DNA from: Acrocarpospora macrocephala
GTDB lineage: Bacteria > Actinomycetota > Actinomycetes > Streptosporangiales > Streptosporangiaceae
Assembly: GCF_009687865.1 (NCBI RefSeq)
Contig: NZ_BLAE01000074.1
Location: forward strand, 1 to 58,500
Length of the DNA stretch: 58,500 nucleotides
Direction of reading: 5' to 3'
Both the position numbers and the translations under genes were made by a program. Under the pieces are notes generated by a model. The model was not told the origin of the DNA. It saw only the letters and a program-made list of their open reading frames with translations, and did not search any database. Every line of letters starts with the position of its first letter. The stretch's first letter is position 1. Below, piece after piece: positions 25,085 through 33,292 of this stretch.

Positions 25085-25198
25085 ATCTAGGCCGCCGTCA
25101 ACGGTATGGCCCGCCGTCTGACCCGCAGAGGACCCGCCACACGCCAACGGGCTCGAACCCTCGCATAGCCCGCAACTGACCCATCTCAAACACTCACG
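25085..25198 (+). pseudogene. IS5-like element 3-prime end remnant
   Basis: This stretch closely matches the end of the transposase fragment at about 31034-31139: the same GCCGCC-TCAACGG start, the CCAACGGG segment and the shared tail GCATAGCCCGCAACTGACCC continuing to CTCAAACACTCA. Nothing else of the element remains here. Confidence 0.7.
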
Positions 25199-25238: not shown

Positions 25239-26444
25239 TCATTTGATCGCGGTAAGGTTGACCACGATCTGCTTGCCTTTCAGCGGGTACGTGTAGAGGT
25301 TCTGCGTGCCGCCGTTCAGCATGGTTTGTTTCTGGATCCTGCTGGCCGCCGTCGTGCCGAGGGTGCCGGTGATGCCGAGGTCGCCGGTGTCGCCGGTCGT
25401 GATGTCGTGTAGGGCCAGGCGGTAGGTGCCGCCTTTGCTCTTGGTCAGGATGATGAAGCGATCGTTGGTGGGCGGGCCGGTCAGAAGGCTCGGGCCGAAG
25501 ACTTCGCGGCGGGACGTGCCGTCGCGTTTGACGATGGCGACGGGGTCGAACTGGCCGCGCGTTTGCATGCACCAGGTGGGGGAGCAGATCCAGCGATCCC
25601 CCTGGAGTGCGGTGATGTCGCGTTTCTCGCCGGTCAGCATGTTGACGATGTGCTGGTTTCTGGCCGGCCATTCGGCGTGGGCGATTCCGGCCCAGGGCCA
25701 TTCGAGCAGGTGCAGGCCGGGCAGGGAGGACGGGAGCGGGGCCGGGTCGCCGCCGGTCAGCGGGACCTGGTAGATGCCGCCCGGATTGCGGCGGGAGTAG
25801 ATCACGCTGCCGTTCTGGATGGTGAGGGCGTCGAGGTCGCCGTACTTCATGTTCTGGCGGATGGTGGTGACCTTGGTGACTCGGCCGCCGGTGGCGGGGA
25901 CGGTCCAGAGGTCGAGGGCGCCCTTGATGGCTCCCCAGGAGACGGTGTACCAGACCAGGCGGCCTTCGCCGAAGGTCACACCCGAGGTGTAGTCGGTCGC
26001 GGGGGGCGCGGTGAAGGTGAAGAGTTCCCTGGCGCGGAAGCCGTCCAGCTCGTAGGCCCAGTATCGGGGCTTCTGCGCGGGGCCGGTCCTGGCCAGCAGG
26101 GTGTCGGCGTCAAGGAACACCTCCGGCGTGAAGGTCAGGCCGTTGGGCAGTTTCCGCGGCACGGTGTGGACCGCGTCCGGCCAGACTTTGGCCAGCGGCA
26201 CGGTTCGGGGCTCGCTCGCGGGTGACGGAACCACTGCGGGCCGCGGCGGCGCGTCCTGCGAGGTCAGTCCCCGGACCGCGTACGTGGACCCGGCCACCAG
26301 CACGACGATCGCGACCGCCGCGGCCAGCGCCAGCCACGGGGGGCGCCGGACCGGCCGGGTGACCAGAAACCTGGACGGATGGGGCGGGGTCTCGTCGTCG
26401 GCCATGTCGGCGAGGGTTTCCCGGAGCAGATCCTCGATGTTCAC
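25239..26444 (-). CDS. Membrane-anchored partner of ECF sigma factor
   Basis: Encodes 401 residues. A short cytoplasmic N-terminus (about 40 residues, NIEDLLRETLADMADDETPPHP) precedes a single membrane helix (PWLALAAAVAIVVLVAGSTYAV) and a large extracytoplasmic domain with repeated beta-strand units resembling a TolB/NHL propeller (GRLVWYTVSWGAIKGALDLWTVPATGG, GSVIYSRRNPGGIYQVPLTGG). The GTG start overlaps the sigma-factor stop (GTGA, 26441-26444), so the two are coupled. It may be an atypical anti-sigma or sensor; no zinc anti-sigma HxxxCxxC motif is visible. Confidence 0.75.
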   Translation of the reverse strand: MNIEDLLRETLADMADDETPPHPSRFLVTRPVRRPPWLALAAAVAIVVLVAGSTYAVRGLTSQDAPPRPAVVPSPASEPRTVPLAKVWPDAVHTVPRKLPNGLTFTPEVFLDADTLLARTGPAQKPRYWAYELDGFRARELFTFTAPPATDYTSGVTFGEGRLVWYTVSWGAIKGALDLWTVPATGGRVTKVTTIRQNMKYGDLDALTIQNGSVIYSRRNPGGIYQVPLTGGDPAPLPSSLPGLHLLEWPWAGIAHAEWPARNQHIVNMLTGEKRDITALQGDRWICSPTWCMQTRGQFDPVAIVKRDGTSRREVFGPSLLTGPPTNDRFIILTKSKGGTYRLALHDITTGDTGDLGITGTLGTTAASRIQKQTMLNGGTQNLYTYPLKGKQIVVNLTAIK

Positions 26445-26947
26445 CTGAGCTCCCTTACCGCGCTGAGTTCCGGCGCGACCTTCCTGAGCCGCTCCAGCGA
26501 GCGGTAGATCTGACTGCGCACCGTGCCGATCCGCATCCCGAGCACCCGGGCGATCTCGGCCTCGGACAGGTCCTCGAAGTAGCGCAGCACGAGCATGGCC
26601 CGCTGCTTCGGCGTCAGCCGGGCGAGCGCCCCCCGCATGACCAGCCGCAGGTCGGCCGTGTCGGCGTGACCTTCGGCGATCTGGTCGGGGAGGTGGCCGA
26701 AGGCGACCTCGGTCATCTGCCTGCGCCGCCGCCACGAGCTGACCTGCTCGTTGTACATGACCCGCCGCACGTAGCCTTCCAGCGCGCTCGGGTCGTTCAG
26801 GCTGCGAAACTTCGCCGCCGTCTTGGTCAGCGCCGTCTGCACTAGGTCCTCTGCCGTGTGGCGGTCCCCGGTCAGCAGGTACGCGGAGCGGAACAGCGCC
26901 CCCGACCGTTCGGTGACGAACGCCCGGAAATCCGGTTCCAGATCCAC
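26441..26947 (-). CDS. ECF RNA polymerase sigma factor (SigE family)
   Basis: Encodes 168 residues. Region 2 (FVTERSGALFRSAYLLTGDRHTAEDLVQTALTKTAAKF) and region 4 (RLTPKQRAMLVLRYFEDLSEAEIARVLGMRIGTVRSQIYRSLERL) are complete. This short form is the SigE-family ECF factor common in Streptomyces and relatives. GTG 26947 follows AGGAGG; GTG 26968 is an in-frame alternative. The downstream overlapping membrane protein is its probable regulator. Confidence 0.92.
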   Translation of the reverse strand: MDLEPDFRAFVTERSGALFRSAYLLTGDRHTAEDLVQTALTKTAAKFRSLNDPSALEGYVRRVMYNEQVSSWRRRRQMTEVAFGHLPDQIAEGHADTADLRLVMRGALARLTPKQRAMLVLRYFEDLSEAEIARVLGMRIGTVRSQIYRSLERLRKVAPELSAVRELR

Positions 26948-27023
26948 CTGTCCTCCTTGCGGTATCACCCATCAAGGACGCGGGCGGCCCGCCAATCTAT
27001 GCCGGACCCGGGAAAGCACGGAC

Positions 27024-27254: not shown

Positions 27255-27310
27255 GCCGACCACTAAAGGGCGCCGACACCATCCCGTGCGCCACCCGCGG
27301 CTATGCCGCC
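27255..27310 (+). pseudogene. IS5-like transposase fragment, left of RIT insertion
   Basis: The plus frame reads LKGADTIPCATRGYAA, the stretch that in IS5-family (IS427-like) transposases directly precedes the DxGKKxNGRKR motif. That motif continues on the other side of the RIT element at 30644. Everything upstream of this short piece is missing. Confidence 0.6.
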
Positions 27311-27399
27311 GGCAATTATCTGGGGTGGTGGGTTATGCCGGGCCGAGTGCGGGTCGGCTGGTCGGCGGGGACGTGACTGGCAGGAACGCCGTCATAACT
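27311..27399 (+). repeat. Left 89-bp terminal inverted repeat of RIT element
   Basis: Begins GGCAATTATCTGGGG and ends GCCGTCATAACT. Its reverse complement is identical to 30555-30643. The stop codon of the third recombinase (27398-27400) lies on its inner edge. Confidence 0.92.
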
Positions 27400-28384
27400 A
27401 CAGGTTCTCAAGGAAGGCGAGTAGGCCGTCGGTGGGTTTGTATCGGCCGGGGCGGGGTTCGTGGAGGGTGGTGCGGGCGAGGGCTTGTTCCTTCATGGCC
27501 AGGTCGGCGTGGAGGTAGACGTCGGTGGACTTGGTGTTGGCGTGTCCGAGCCAGAGGGCGATGGTGGAGGTGTCGATGCCGGCTTGGAGGAGCGCCATAG
27601 CGGCGGAGTGACGCAGTGTGTGCGGGGTGACGTGCTTGGAGCCGAGGGTCGGGCATGTCGCTGTGGCGGCGGGCAGGTACTTGGTCAGCAGATCGGCGAC
27701 AGCGTCTCTGCTCAGGTGCCCGCCGGTGCGGGTGGGAAACAGCGGATCGGCTGGGTCGGCGTGCCGGTGGGTGATCCACTGCTGCAGCAGCCGGGCGGTG
27801 GGCTTGGTCAGTGGGGTGCACCGCTGTTTTCGGCCTTTCCCCGTGCAGCGCAGGTGAGCACCCGTGCCGAGGGCGGTGTCGGCGCAGGTCAGGGAGGTCA
27901 GCTCGGAGACGCGCAGGCCGGTCTGGATGGCGACGAGCAGTAGCAGGTGATCGCGTCGGCCCAGGGTGGTCGTGCGGTCCGGGGCGGCCAGGAACGCGTC
28001 GCTCTCCTGCCGGTTCAGGAAGCACATCTGGGTGGAGTCGCGTCGTTTGTGCGGGATCGCCAGGACACGCTGGATGAGCAGGGCGTGTTCGGGGCAGCGT
28101 AGGGCGGCGTAGCGGAACAGGGAGTGGATCGCGGCGAGCCGGGCGTTGCGGGTGGTGATGGCGTTGCCGCGCTGGTGTTCAAGGTGGTCGAGGAAGGCGC
28201 CGATGAAGACGGCATCGAGATCGTTGAGATCCAGCGCCGAGGGTGGACGGCCGAGCCGCTGCTGGGCGTGGAGCAGCAGCAGGCGGAAGGTGTCGCGGTA
28301 GGCGCTGACGGTGTGCGGGCTGACCCTGCGCTGGGTCAGGCGTTCGGTGAAGAAACCCTGCAAGACGGGGGCTAGAGCGGTCAC
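27398..28384 (-). CDS. RIT tyrosine recombinase, third gene
   Basis: Encodes 328 residues from GTG 28384, which overlaps the stop of the second recombinase (GTGA); ATG 28399 is an alternative. The N-terminal SAM-like core-binding domain (about 5-100) contains SPHTVSAYRDTFRLLL. The catalytic domain has Arg I in TGLRVSELTSL, Lys in GKGRKQRCTPL, HTLRHSAA (H-x-x-R), WLGHANTKSTDVY with His and the nucleophile Tyr. All catalytic residues are present. It acts on the element ends with its two siblings. The tail lies at the inner edge of the left inverted repeat. Confidence 0.9.
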   Translation of the reverse strand: MTALAPVLQGFFTERLTQRRVSPHTVSAYRDTFRLLLLHAQQRLGRPPSALDLNDLDAVFIGAFLDHLEHQRGNAITTRNARLAAIHSLFRYAALRCPEHALLIQRVLAIPHKRRDSTQMCFLNRQESDAFLAAPDRTTTLGRRDHLLLLVAIQTGLRVSELTSLTCADTALGTGAHLRCTGKGRKQRCTPLTKPTARLLQQWITHRHADPADPLFPTRTGGHLSRDAVADLLTKYLPAATATCPTLGSKHVTPHTLRHSAAMALLQAGIDTSTIALWLGHANTKSTDVYLHADLAMKEQALARTTLHEPRPGRYKPTDGLLAFLENL

Positions 28385-29310
28385 GCCGACTCCTTCCATA
28401 CCTCCTCCAGGCGGGTCGCGGCGGCCGCGATCAGCTGCGGGCAGGCGTGCAGATACCAGTAGGTGGTCGCCGGGCTGATGTGCCCCATGTAGGTGGAGAG
28501 CGCCGGAAGGAGGTGGGTCACGTCCGCGTCCTGGGAGTACCAGGTCACCAGGGTGGCGACCGCGAAGGAATGGCGGAGATCGTAGAGGCGCGGCTTGGCC
28601 GCGCCCAGCAGTGTGCAGATGCCGGTGGCCCGCAGCAGACGGTTGAAGGTCTTGCTGGCGTTGGTGTGGGTGAGACGGGTTCCGGCTCCGGACAGGAAGA
28701 ACGCCAGGGTCGATGGCCGCGAGCAGAGCTCGTCGCGTCGCCGCGCGTAGCTCCGCAGCTGGTCGGTGGTGCTGGGGTGCAGCGGCACCAACCGGGACTT
28801 GCCGAACTTGGTGCCCTGAACGAGCAGGACGCCCTCGGCGAGGTCCACCTCGTCGCGATCCAGCCCCATCGCCTCACCGGTCCGCAGCCCAGTCACCGCC
28901 ATGAGGCCGATGAAGGCGGTGAAGGTCGCGGCCCGCAGCGGCGAGGTCAACGCGCCGGCCTCGCCCACCAGGGCGGTGATCTGCTCGGGCGAATACAGAT
29001 ACGGTGTCGTCGGCCGTTGGTGGCCGCGGGGAAGGAGATCCGCTGGCGGGACCTCGGTGCGGGTGTCCATGGTCGCCATGTGGCGGGCGAATACGCGCAC
29101 CACCGTCAGCCGTTTCGCCCACCAGGATGGATCGGCTTCACTGGGCGAAGTGGCCCACTCCAGCGCGGCCTCGATGGTCAAGTGCTCCAAACCGTGCCCC
29201 TCGCCGAACGCGACGAACTGCCGGAGCATCCGGCCCTCCTGCCGCAACTTGTAACCCAGACCGCGCCGCATCGCCAGGTACTCCTCGGCTGCCTCCCGCA
29301 TGGTGCTCAT
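28381..29310 (-). CDS. RIT tyrosine recombinase, second gene
   Basis: Encodes 309 residues from ATG 29310, in a TGATG overlap with the stop of the first recombinase; GTG 29313 is in frame. It has a SAM-like N-terminal domain (EEYLAMRRGLGYKLRQEGRMLRQF). The catalytic residues are Arg in TGLRTGEAMGL, Lys in KFGKSRLVPL, the box RLYDLRHSFA, and YMGHISPATTYWY with His and Tyr. In most family members the box reads HDLRH; here the first His is Tyr, which may weaken catalysis or be a lineage trait. Part of the RIT trio. Confidence 0.9.
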   Translation of the reverse strand: MSTMREAAEEYLAMRRGLGYKLRQEGRMLRQFVAFGEGHGLEHLTIEAALEWATSPSEADPSWWAKRLTVVRVFARHMATMDTRTEVPPADLLPRGHQRPTTPYLYSPEQITALVGEAGALTSPLRAATFTAFIGLMAVTGLRTGEAMGLDRDEVDLAEGVLLVQGTKFGKSRLVPLHPSTTDQLRSYARRRDELCSRPSTLAFFLSGAGTRLTHTNASKTFNRLLRATGICTLLGAAKPRLYDLRHSFAVATLVTWYSQDADVTHLLPALSTYMGHISPATTYWYLHACPQLIAAAATRLEEVWKESA

Positions 29311-29990
29311 CACTCACCTGCCCCGGGCCATGGCCGGACGACCGCCGCGAGCGCGTCCCGGTCGACCTTGGCGTAAATCGCTGTGGTCTCCTCGCCGTGG
29401 TGGCGCAGCAGCTGCGCGACCTCTGCCAGGTTCCCGCCATTGGCCAGGACCTGAGATGCCGCACGATGCCGCAGCTGGTGCGCACCGACCGTGGGAATCC
29501 CGGCCCGAGCAGAGGCCCCGCGGGTGGCCATGACCACCGACTGGCGAGACATCGGCGTGTCCGGGCCGCACGAACGCAGGAACACTTCCCGGACCGCCGA
29601 GGGCCGACGGCCGTTACGCAGGTAGCCGACAAGCGCGGCACCCACATCGGCGGGCAGCGGCAGCCGATCGATACGGCCGCCCTTCCCATGAATAACGAGC
29701 TCACCGGCCCGCCATTCGACGTCGTCCAGGCGCAGCGCAGCCACCTCCCGCGCGCGCAGGCCCAGCCGCGCCATCAACATCAGCACGGCGAAGTCCCGGC
29801 ACCCGACCTTGGTGGTCTGATCACAGGCGGCCAGCAGTGTGGTCACCGTTTCGGTGTCCACGCCCTTCGGCAGGGCGCTCATCCGCCAGCTGGCGACCGA
29901 CGGCACCGCCTCCGCCAGATCCCGGTCTGCGACCTCGGTGACGAACAGGAAGCGCAGCAGCGACCGCAACGAGCAGGTCGTCACCTTCAT
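29310..29990 (-). CDS. RIT tyrosine recombinase, first gene, catalytic part
   Basis: The frame from ATG 29990 encodes 226 residues. It contains the remaining core-binding helix (SLRSLLRFLFV) and the full catalytic domain: Arg in LGLRAREVAAL, Lys in GKGGRIDRLPL, HQLRHRAA, LLRHHGEETTAIYAKVD with the Tyr. Its ATG overlaps the stop of the N-terminal ORF as ATGA (29987-29990). It could be made as a separate polypeptide by reinitiation, by -1 frameshifting, or be the product of a one-base deletion in a once single gene. The continuous helix across the junction favours a single ancestral gene. Confidence 0.7.
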   Translation of the reverse strand: MKVTTCSLRSLLRFLFVTEVADRDLAEAVPSVASWRMSALPKGVDTETVTTLLAACDQTTKVGCRDFAVLMLMARLGLRAREVAALRLDDVEWRAGELVIHGKGGRIDRLPLPADVGAALVGYLRNGRRPSAVREVFLRSCGPDTPMSRQSVVMATRGASARAGIPTVGAHQLRHRAASQVLANGGNLAEVAQLLRHHGEETTAIYAKVDRDALAAVVRPWPGAGE

Positions 29991-30508
29991 CGACGGCGCC
30001 GCGACTCCTCGATGATGAAGCAGATGACGGCAGCCGCTTCCAGCCGCTCCAACCGCAGTGCCTCCCCGACGACCAAGGTCCTCAAGAACCTGCGGGCGAC
30101 GTCCACACGCTGGCGTGCCGTCCGCTCGGCCAACCGACGCTCGCGACGCAGGTAGACGCCGTAGGTCTGCAGCACGTGCTCGACCGGGCAGTCGATCTCC
30201 TCGCAGTCCACCTCCGGGATCACGCCGATCTCCCGCAGATATCCCAGCTGCGGCTTCAACGCCCGAACGGTCACCCATCGCTGATAGCCAGCGGCACGCC
30301 GTGCCTCCACGAATCGCTCCACCTGCTGCCCGGTCAGCTCCGTGGAAGACATGCCTTCCGACTCCAGCCAGCGGCTCAGGTGCGCCATCACGTAGGCGTT
30401 GTCCTGCGCGACCCGCGGCGTGTATCCCAGCCGGACCAACTCCGCCCGAAACCCTGCCACGTACGACGCCAACGGACCTGACACCCGAGCCGGATATCGA
30501 TCCATCAT
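29987..30508 (-). CDS. RIT tyrosine recombinase, first gene, N-terminal part
   Basis: Encodes 173 residues from ATG 30508, which has a strong AAGGAGG 5 bases upstream; the frame opens at 30532. It contains a core-binding SAM-like domain (ASYVAGFRAELVRLGYTP, then RQRVDVARRFLRTL). It ends in CFIIEESRRRR at TGA 29987. Related trio recombinases continue here into the catalytic domain, which is in the -1 frame. No obvious slippery heptamer is seen at the junction. Confidence 0.7.
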   Translation of the reverse strand: MMDRYPARVSGPLASYVAGFRAELVRLGYTPRVAQDNAYVMAHLSRWLESEGMSSTELTGQQVERFVEARRAAGYQRWVTVRALKPQLGYLREIGVIPEVDCEEIDCPVEHVLQTYGVYLRRERRLAERTARQRVDVARRFLRTLVVGEALRLERLEAAAVICFIIEESRRRR

Positions 30509-30554
30509 GTTTGCCTCCTTCGGTGCGCTCACGAAGAAGCCGACACACTCGCGC

Positions 30555-30643
30555 AGTTATGACGGCGTTCCTGCCAGTCACGTCCCCGCCGACCAGCCGA
30601 CCCGCACTCGGCCCGGCATAACCCACCACCCCAGATAATTGCC
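30555..30643 (-). repeat. Right 89-bp terminal inverted repeat of RIT element
   Basis: Begins AGTTATGACGGCG and ends ATAATTGCC. Identical, as reverse complement, to 27311-27399. Confidence 0.92.
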
Positions 30644-30670
30644 GTTATCCCGGCACCGGGATAACGGCAA
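30639..30670. repeat. Palindrome across right RIT/IS junction
   Basis: TTGCCGTTATCCCGG and CCGGGATAACGGCAA are perfect 15-bp arms around CA. The left arm spans the last 5 bp of the RIT repeat plus 10 bp outside it; the right arm is transposase coding sequence. It may be part of a recombinase core site. Confidence 0.75.
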
Positions 30671-31112
30671 GAAGATCAACGGCAGGAAGCGGTTCATCGT
30701 CACCGACACCCTCGCGTTGCTGCTGGTGGTGTGTGTGATGGCTGCCTCGGTCCAGGACCGCGACGGCGCCAAGACCACCCTGCTGTCCCTGTATCTGCTG
30801 ACCCCGGTCCGGTTCGTCTACGCCGACGCCGGCTTCGCCGGTGCCCTGGTGGAGTGGGCCCGGCGGGTCCTGGCCTCCACGCTGGACATCGTGCGCAAAG
30901 CGCCTGGCCAGGTCGGCTTCGCCGTGATCGCCCGCCGTTGGGTGGTGGAACGCTCGCTGGCCTGGCTGACCGGCCATCGCCGCCTGGCCCGCGACTACGA
31001 ACGCCACCCCGCCACCGCTGAAGCCATGATCCGCTGGGCCGCCATCAACGGCATGGCCCGCCTCACCCGCGGAACACCCGCCACATGCCAACGGGCACGA
31101 ACCCTCGCATAG
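30644..31112 (+). pseudogene. IS5-family transposase, C-terminal half
   Basis: The frame reads DNGKKINGRKRFIVTDTLAL, continues through VQDRDGAKTTLL, VYADAGFAGALVEWARR, RRWVVERSLAWLTGHRRLARDYERHP and ends in TRGTPATCQRARTLA at 31112. These are the DDE region (second Asp in YADAGFAG; Glu in WVVERSLAWL) and basic tail of an IS5/IS427-type transposase. The N-terminal half is separated by the RIT insertion, with only 27255-27310 surviving. The 3-prime end also occurs as a fragment at 25085-25198. Confidence 0.85.
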
Positions 31113-31156
31113 CCCGCAACTGACCCATCTCAAACACTCACTAAGAGCCCAAGTGG

Positions 31157-32232: not shown

Positions 32233-32326
32233 TTCCGCTGCTGCGTTGACCAGCTTATTTGGCGGTCTTGTGCGAAGCTAGCATAGCTGGGTTGTGCCGG
32301 AACAGCGTCGGATTTTTGGAGGAGCG

Positions 32327-33292
32327 ATGGTCCGCCCCCGAAGACAGGTGCCCGTGTCCCCCACGCTGCTGGAACTGCTTCCGTCGTGGGAGCTGTCGTT
32401 GCAGGCAGGGCACAAGTCGCCGGGAACCATTCGCAGCTACCTGGACAGCGTACGCGGGCTGTCGGCGTTCCTGATCGACGGGGGGATGCGGGCGGATGTG
32501 GAGGGGGTCAGCCCCGAGGAGATTCGTGCGTTTCTGGCCCGTTCGCTGGAGGTTTCCTCGCCGGGTAACGCGCACAAGCACTTCCGCAACCTGCGGGTCT
32601 TCTTCGGGTGGCTGGTCGCCGAGGGGGAGCGGGCGGAGGGGTCGCCGCTGGCCGAGGTGGAACCGCCGAAGGTGGACCGGAAGCCGGTCCGGCCGCTGAC
32701 CGAGCAGGAGCAGGCCCGGCTGCTGGCGGTTTGTGCCGGTGATTCGTGGATCGATCGGCGGGATACGGCGATCATGCGGATTTTGATGGACAACGGGATG
32801 CGCGTGTCGGCGCTGGCGGGGCTGCGGTACAGCGCGTCCGATCCCGAGGCGAACGATGTCTGGCTGGGACGGCATGTGCTGCGGATCATCCTCGGGGGAG
32901 GGGATGTCTATCTGGCTCCGCTTGGGCGGAAGTCGGCGGCGGCGGTCGATCGGTATTTGCGGGCTCGTACGCGATTGAGGCATGCGTCCTCACCGTGGCT
33001 CTGGCTGCCGGAGCGGGGGGTGACCGCGCATGGGGGAGATCGGCGGCTGACCGCCACCGGGATCCAGCAGATGTTGCACCGGCGTGGCGAGGAGGCGGGC
33101 ATCCCCGGCGTGTTTCCGCATCGGTTCCGGCACACGATGGCGAGCGGGTATCTGCGGGAGGGCGGGGATCCGCTCAACCTCATGCGGGTCGGGGGCTGGA
33201 AGACGCCGGTGATGGCACGCCACTACGCCGAAACCGCGGGAACCGAAGCGCTGGCGGAGCACGCCAGGCTGTCGCCTGGCGATCGAATCTAA
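32327..33292 (+). CDS. Tyrosine recombinase/integrase near tRNA-Arg
   Basis: Encodes 321 residues from ATG 32327, which follows GGAGGA; the frame opens at 32294. The N-terminal SAM-like domain contains LQAGHKSPGTIRSYLDSVRGLSAFL. Catalytic residues are Arg in DNGMRVSALAGL, Lys in LGRKSAAAV, PHRFRHTMAS (H-x-x-R) and GGWKTPVMARHYAE, where Trp takes the second His position (a common variant) before Tyr. It is unlike the RIT recombinases. No other phage or conjugation genes are near, so it is a solitary XerC/D-like integrase or the survivor of a lost element. Confidence 0.88.
   Translation: MVRPRRQVPVSPTLLELLPSWELSLQAGHKSPGTIRSYLDSVRGLSAFLIDGGMRADVEGVSPEEIRAFLARSLEVSSPGNAHKHFRNLRVFFGWLVAEGERAEGSPLAEVEPPKVDRKPVRPLTEQEQARLLAVCAGDSWIDRRDTAIMRILMDNGMRVSALAGLRYSASDPEANDVWLGRHVLRIILGGGDVYLAPLGRKSAAAVDRYLRARTRLRHASSPWLWLPERGVTAHGGDRRLTATGIQQMLHRRGEEAGIPGVFPHRFRHTMASGYLREGGDPLNLMRVGGWKTPVMARHYAETAGTEALAEHARLSPGDRI

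Follow-up and report, generated by a model that had tools for sequence, protein, structure and literature searches.

The locus described here raises the question of where a recombinase-in-trio (RIT) element begins and ends, and what its ends imply about how it is inserted. RIT elements were recognised in about 2009. The window, which is the whole 58,500-nt stretch that we analysed (positions 1–58,500 of Acrocarpospora macrocephala contig NZ_BLAE01000074.1), contains three tyrosine-recombinase coding regions, ritC, ritB and ritA, enclosed by long inverted repeats. Our preferred reading, to which we assign a probability of roughly three in four, is that this RIT is inserted in an IS5-family transposase gene, at its RGYxxGKK motif, and that its ends are built for tyrosine recombination, with a 6-bp crossover region (S6) and a palindromic linker. 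Comparison of the window element with its relatives suggests how the RIT family picks its targets and moves.

Ends of the element and its empty site

The ends of the element and the flanking target gene are composed of the following features.

27267–27315, plus strand: remnant of the N-terminal half of an IS5-family transposase (GADTIPCATRGYAAG); the gene is unrecognisable upstream of it
27310–27315, plus strand: outer CGGCAA, the 6-bp crossover repeat at the ritC end, coinciding with the outermost 6 nt of the left repeat
27310–27399, plus strand: left 90-nt inverted repeat, ritC end, from an inverted-repeat search; R1 (TTATCTGGGG) starts at 27316, R2 (TTATGCCGGG) lies 17 nt further inward and an inverted R3 lies near 27392–27398
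30555–30644, minus strand: right 90-nt inverted repeat, ritA end
30639–30644, minus strand: inverted internal 6-mer (TTGCCG on the plus strand), between R1 and the palindrome
30645–30664, no strand: palindromic linker TTATCCCGGCACCGGGATAA, 20 bp with 9/10 pairs, outside the right repeat
30665–30670, plus strand: outer CGGCAA, the 6-bp crossover repeat on the palindrome side, where the insertion ends
30665–31112, plus strand: C-terminal half of the IS5-family transposase (GKKINGRKR...)

The two 90-nt repeats are 100% identical and are the one such pair around the element. The second-longest inverted pair in the 4.4 kb searched reaches only 34 nt at 71%, so the 90-nt pair is not due to chance. 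The 6-mer CGGCAA begins the left repeat, its reverse complement closes the right repeat, and a third copy follows beyond the palindrome. The arms of the palindrome and of R1 read GATAA-N6-TTATC, inverted.

The right flank encodes a DDE transposase, matching Pfam DDE_Tnp_1 and scoring 82.5 against an NCBIfam IS5-family model with a cut-off of 110. The insertion lies at the RGYxxGKK motif of this gene: joined through a single CGGCAA, the flanks give RGYAAGKKINGRKR in frame (...RGYAA/GKKINGRKR...). Among plasmid records, 118 matched this 157-nt joined site, 33 of them with a query coverage of 80% or more. H91, the best match, is annotated as an IS5-family transposase gene, and 155 of its bases align with 155 bases of the query at 81% identity; the empty-site relatives of the window target lack the palindrome. 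Because joining the flanks through one CGGCAA gives both an in-frame transposase and an empty-site match, we place the insert at 27316–30670, that is 3355 bp with one copy of the 6-mer counted.

A first-pass annotation of this DNA had taken a pair of identical, unusually long 89-bp repeats as the insertion boundaries. Their identity is confirmed, although each is in fact one base longer, and the left boundary agrees to within a base; the right one falls 26–27 bp short of the end of the insertion. The annotation had overlooked the interruption of a transposase gene as well as the palindrome and the 6-bp repeats. Nor is the length exceptional, since 10 of 52 trio loci, the window included, have repeats of 83–112 nt; a 423-nt repeat match in the Aromatoleum aromaticum plasmid 2 trio (L130) was left out of this count because it arises from nested elements. 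Recent activity of the window element, which the annotation had proposed from these repeats as an alternative to strong constraint, is possible. The annotation had also proposed looking for a second copy or an empty site. Neither a second copy of the element nor an intact copy of the joined 157-nt target was found in its own 12.1-Mb draft genome, where two other trios (L063 and L064) are 67–68% alike to it in the parts that align. Elsewhere, the empty site is matched in plasmid records, and a related genome (G182) has two near-identical copies of a related RIT. This match and these copies suggest mobility for elements of this kind.

Linker palindrome and S6 in related elements

The scan covered 49 trio loci, found in plasmid records, actinobacterial genomes and a small number of other bacteria. 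Eight loci with a missing or unresolved end were dropped (L034, L036, L111, L118, L119, L128, L130 and L133), and L052 and L053, which are two contigs with an identical 3355-nt stretch, were merged. The remaining 40 loci include the window and extend to metagenome-assembled genomes (MAGs) of Candidatus Sulfotelmatobacter (L054) and Halochromatium (L056). A palindrome was called where a 20-nt stretch positioned 6 nt outside R1 formed at least 7 of 10 pairs, with the R1 positions of L115 and L121 set by hand. On this definition, 32 of the 40 loci carry a palindrome at exactly one end, divided equally between the ritA end (16) and the ritC end (16). The same 20-nt slot at the other ends pairs at no more than 5 of 10 positions in 45 of 48 cases scored, the exceptions being both ends of L127 and one of L034.

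All three copies of S6 were scored in 30 loci, a count in which L110 was kept though its other end is spurious. Mean agreement, out of 6, was 5.13 between the far and outer copies, 5.07 between the far and internal copies and 5.17 between the internal and outer copies, as against 2.06–2.16 between different elements; no observed mean was attained in any of 20000 permutations. The three copies are identical in 12 of the 30 loci. This agreement ends at the limits of the 6-mer. Positionwise identity is 0.72–1.00 within the six columns and 0.03–0.38 outside them where unrelated sequence is compared, and identity between the two target sides is 0.76–0.97 inside the six positions and 0.03–0.38 outside. 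No arm-like target consensus was found outside S6 in the scored loci, where no position stands out strongly.

The outer S6 copies form a direct repeat at the target, which could also come from a cut-and-paste or copy mechanism with a 6-bp target duplication; the palindrome would then be a mere end feature and the internal 6-mer a by-product. Six scored loci in which the outer copies agree and the internal one differs (L064, L073, L103, L115, L123 and L125) favour such an origin. We nevertheless consider it improbable. The internal copy matches the outer ones (5.17 and 5.07) as well as these match each other, and in L065, L077, L079 and L105 it equals one outer copy and not the other (3–5 of 6 matches). 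Such unequal outer copies count against duplication because duplication would make the outer two identical. Furthermore, all three encoded proteins are tyrosine recombinases, enzymes that are not known to produce target duplications by repair.

Proposed recombination scheme

If S6 is instead the crossover region of a tyrosine recombination, the ends can be laid out as target X - S6 - R1 ... R1' - S6' - B'B palindrome - S6 - target Y, where B and R1 would be inverted recombinase-binding arms. Recombination between the inverted terminal repeats alone would only flip the element. The palindromic linker would add a second arm in the opposite sense, by which X-S6-R1 and B-S6-Y become a direct pair, and recombination of this pair would release a circle and leave the empty site X-S6-Y. 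The predicted circle junction carries two mirror-image cores, R1'-S6'-B' and B-S6-R1, around the palindrome. Either core could integrate into a target sharing all or part of S6, which would give both orientations of the element while the palindrome stays on the same side of the target. Such a mechanism would account for a palindrome on one side only, for three copies of the 6-mer and for the occurrence of two orientations and of both kinds of chimera described below. Strand exchange within S6, the circle and the assignment of individual recombinases to the arms are what we infer from the arrangement of these sites.

Orientations and chimeric loci

In genome G182, one RIT is present twice, at 1.50 Mb and again at 3.83 Mb, and the copies are 99.97% identical over 3364 nt. 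The palindrome is located at the ritC end in one copy (L079) and at the ritA end in the other (L144), and both copies lie at what appears by eye to be the same DALH motif. Between the copies the outer 6-mers, which differ at one position, have changed places, and the palindrome 20-mer is the same in both copies, read inverted. The end repeats differ by one base 13 nt into R1, and this base is found at the same element end in both copies. Two other pairs are likewise flipped, with the shared flank, whose length is given without the repeat, at opposite ends: L055 and L056 (97.0% over 3403 nt; flank of ~225 nt) and L121 and L123 (98.3% over 3354 nt; flank of ~400 nt).

Flipped elements and homogenised repeats could also arise from ordinary homologous recombination between the inverted repeats, with no part played by the Rit recombinases. 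Identical 90-nt repeats such as those of the window could recombine, so that the element would turn around while its flanks stayed in place and the repeats would become alike. In G182, however, the match between the repeats extends to just 36 nt and includes mismatches, of which the one 13 nt into R1 keeps its end, confining any exchange to the outer 18 nt. As this explanation also leaves the 6-bp limit and the empty site unaccounted for, we regard it as very unlikely.

Recombination through the S6 cores would in addition predict chimeras. L067 and L080 have the same target half X on both sides, whereas in L127 it is the palindrome, with the same ritB-ritC flank (Y), that is present on both sides. 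These loci fit the reciprocal products expected if two copies recombine via an internal and an outer core.

Association of the palindrome with the element

The window-type palindrome (TTATCCCGGNNCCGGGATAA, at most one mismatch) is found in 3 of 341 genomes of the family, each time adjoining a RIT, and therefore belongs to the element. A second type (TTATGCCGANNTCGGCATAA) occupies 6 places in 4 of the 341 genomes, 4 of which adjoin a RIT or RIT remnant; its reversed control pattern occurs at no place in these genomes. That the palindrome is instead a target feature, or a separate small repeat (similar to a repetitive extragenic palindrome or a miniature inverted-repeat transposable element) beside which RITs insert, would suit its one-sided position and the two TTATGCCGANNTCGGCATAA places that have no RIT nearby (L138 and L140), but is highly improbable given that the window type lies only beside RITs, the empty-site relatives lack it, its arms match the element's own R1, its sequence follows the element and not the target in both G182 copies, and the two solitary palindromes may themselves be leftovers.

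At these solitary places the palindromes (L138:1501–1520 and L140:1501–1520) are bordered by inverted 6-mers and, by eye, apparent halves of target genes. They may be scars of RIT loss.

In the archetypal RIT region of pHG1, one element has a 10/10 palindrome with S6 equal on both palindrome sides. The same region (L137:3215–12841) contains a RIT with two others, 99.9% identical to each other, lying in inverted orientation on either side of it.

Observations that weigh against tyrosine recombination at S6

Several points speak against our preferred reading. No recombination was observed, and the circles and enzymology are deduced from static sequence. The three S6 copies are not all identical in 18 of the 30 scored loci: the far copy equals the outer one in 6, the internal equals the outer in 4, the internal equals the far in 3, all differ in 4, and L110, with its spurious other end, makes up the remainder. 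Related elements share targets, which means that the 30 loci are not independent cases. Target half X does not resemble the arms of the element, and the flips could be inversions that took place after insertion.

The linker is not universal either. Eight of the 40 loci have no single linker (L063, L067, L080, L055, L102, L112, L114 and L127), and eight of the original 49 were lost to missing or unresolved ends. Among the former, we can offer no explanation for L063 and L055 and could not resolve L102 and L112, and the palindrome of L114 is one base out of register; L067, L080 and L127 fit the chimeras described above. Two of the six TTATGCCGANNTCGGCATAA places have no RIT within 1.5 kb on either side. 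In pHG1, one element end lacks a palindrome and the ends of another element are unresolved.

Targets of RIT lineages

Target reading frames that are open across the insertion were picked by eye. For 24 of the 32 linker loci, we scanned the flanks with Pfam as 30 separate pieces at a threshold of E 0.01, with the window's own target counted apart. Matches were obtained for 21 of the 24 loci (27 of 30 pieces), and at 18 loci the target belongs to a gene family of mobile elements, as follows.

IS4/5: L052
IstB: L064, L073 and L105
Reverse transcriptase with group II intron maturase domain: L078
rve: L077, L120, L121 and L124
DDE_Tnp_1: L079, and L116 under the curated cut-off
IS66: L056, L109 and L125
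Transposase_mut: L106
Resolvase: L122
Phage_integrase: L129, a ritB by eye
DDE_5: L065

The other three loci have targets matching AAA_22 (L081), HTH (L082) and MPTase-PolyVal (L131, ArdC-like by eye), and the flanks of L107, L115 and L054 have no Pfam match. Where both pieces were scanned, the cut is precise: positions 50–158 and then 159–237 of the IstB profile are matched in L064, and positions 33–152 and then 154–264 of the IS66 profile in L109.

Targets were compared with descent on a quick RitC tree of 38 rows, in which 11 of 35 inner branches were left open. For 21 rows, the seven target groups require 6 changes, which is the minimum, compared with a mean of 14.4 for shuffled labels (0 of 200 shuffles as low). 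The IS5, IstB, ArdC, AAA, RT (reverse transcriptase) and DALH groups each form one side of a branch. The nearest row to the window is L068, at 86% identity. We rejected IS66 as a single RitC clade, since it requires 3 changes and 92 of 500 shuffles are as low; target loyalty is therefore not universal. RIT lineages thus appear mostly to keep to conserved motifs in the genes of other mobile elements, which suggests that RITs mostly prey on such elements.

The rit genes and family membership

The coding regions of the window element are as follows.

27398–28384, minus strand: ritC, tyrosine recombinase; GTG start within a GTGA overlap, with an upstream ATG at 28399 that also fits
28381–29313, minus strand: ritB, tyrosine recombinase
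29310–29990, minus strand: C-terminal catalytic part of ritA, in a frame different from that of the N-terminal part; its ATG overlaps the stop of the latter (ATGA)
29987–30532, minus strand: open reading frame (ORF) of the N-terminal part of ritA; likely start ATG at 30508 behind GGAGG, ending in TGA after the frameshift

The ORF list and Pfam results place no other gene between the repeats, and Phage_integrase is matched in all three catalytic parts. Successive genes share 4-nt GTGA overlaps, ritA with ritB at 29310–29313 and ritB with ritC at 28381–28384. The first-pass annotation was thus correct about a trio on one strand with short overlaps, here 4 nt each, and nothing else inside. Its terms "complete" and "undamaged" are not borne out at ritA, which lies in two frames with ~10 nt missing. 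The catalytic part belongs to an ORF at 29310–30629, from the ATG at 29990, in a frame other than that of the N-terminal part. In L015, L025, L026, L052 and L053, RitA is encoded in one open frame, and the last N-terminal and first C-terminal aligned residues are 15–18 nt apart compared with 5–8 nt in the window; from alignment coordinates and translations, the window ritA is 10 nt shorter at the break. The gene is consequently read as split by a frameshift and not intact. Conserved programmed frameshifting was considered and rejected, given the single frame in these five loci. Two separate RitA pieces might be made by reinitiation at the overlapping ATGA.

Full-length alignments with four relatives were obtained for both ritB and ritC, which, judged by eye, retain the residues expected of tyrosine recombinases. 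The trio is collinear with that of A. aromaticum plasmid 2, with identities of 47% for the RitA C-terminal part, 46% for RitB and 55% for RitC. No curated Rit model was among the Pfam or NCBIfam results. Because ritA is split, the window copy is probably no longer autonomous. The proposal that it makes a good model copy is likewise not supported, as ritA is frameshifted and its own genome has neither a second copy nor an intact target.

On these features the element classifies as a RIT member. It has three adjacent overlapping tyrosine-recombinase genes, albeit with ritA in two frames, of the RitA, RitB and RitC types in order, together with 90-nt terminal inverted repeats and a 20-bp palindrome at one end. 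That not all three frames are intact bears on the activity of this copy and not on its descent. The region between the repeats contains no fourth conserved gene of GInts or SE elements (ginD/Srap or Tfp), and in place of the Tn554-like set of two recombinases and TnpC there are three recombinases and no further gene. The window copy is a decayed, ordinary RIT.

Comparison with characterised systems

The window element resembles the RITs of Cupriavidus metallidurans CH34, C. necator pHG1 and A. aromaticum plasmid 2 in its overlapping A-B-C tyrosine-recombinase genes, size range of ~3.3–3.5 kb, inverted repeats, one-end palindrome and insertion in a transposase gene. It differs from them in its frameshifted ritA, 90-nt repeats, TTATC-type arms and IS5-family target. 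Integration of the Tn916 type, with its coupling sequences, likewise uses a crossover of 6 bp in which element and target need not match fully, as in our model; unlike the window element, it relies on a single recombinase and has no such inverted repeats and no palindromic linker.

The accessible text of earlier studies describes RIT insertion in transposase genes (IS66 and Tn6049-like) as well as in radC and contains no demonstration of transposition (PMC3414803, PMC10214605, PMC2864759, PMC8138268, PMC5385486). IS66 tnpA and the Tn6049-like transposase are given as targets in two of these (PMC2864759, PMC3414803), and published inverted repeats measure 28–34 bp (PMC3414803, PMC10214605). In a 2012 paper, the overlapping palindrome and the repeats are said not to correspond to the usual core and arm sites (PMC3414803), and a table in the 2023 review lists target specificity, empty site and movement of RITs as not tested (PMC10214605). 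The available portions of PMC2864759, PMC3414803 and PMC10214605 give no crossover, boundary or target rule for RITs. More broadly, searches of the open-licence literature, with subscription papers outside our scope, returned no description of the 6-mer rule or of mirror-image cores.

Tn554-like/SE elements likewise have several tyrosine recombinases and carry a 6-bp piece of left flank to the new site (PMC10214605). They encode partner proteins TnpC, Srap and Tfp, none of which was seen in the window element, and the accessible text on them mentions neither a palindromic linker between inverted ends nor a set of three S6 copies (PMC10214605). GInts also have three recombinase-related genes in an operon and site-specific ends, but require a fourth gene, ginD, and form large islands, whereas the window element has three genes and no cargo (PMC5385486, PMC10214605).

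For the family as a whole, we lean slightly towards a view of RITs as hyperparasites of other mobile DNA. They would move as a circle with palindrome-joined mirror-image cores and a target-matched 6-bp crossover, with either end leading, and individual lineages would each home on the codons of a single conserved motif, be it in a transposase, an intron reverse transcriptase or a plasmid gene. If this is true, target homing would give RITs a large supply of targets at little cost to the host. The comparison yields a testable design, comprising the 6-bp crossover, the boundaries, a predicted circle junction and predicted targets.

Neighbouring sequences

A 111-bp stretch at 25087–25197 is 89% identical to 31034–31141, the 3' end of the interrupted IS5-family transposase, and is therefore a fragment of a second copy of that insertion sequence, 2.1 kb to the left of the element. 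Also on the left, at 26441–26968 on the minus strand, is a gene for an extracytoplasmic function (ECF)-type sigma factor. A further tyrosine recombinase gene (Pfam Phage_integrase) is located 1.6 kb to the right, at 32294–33292, with a position and strand unrelated to the trio.

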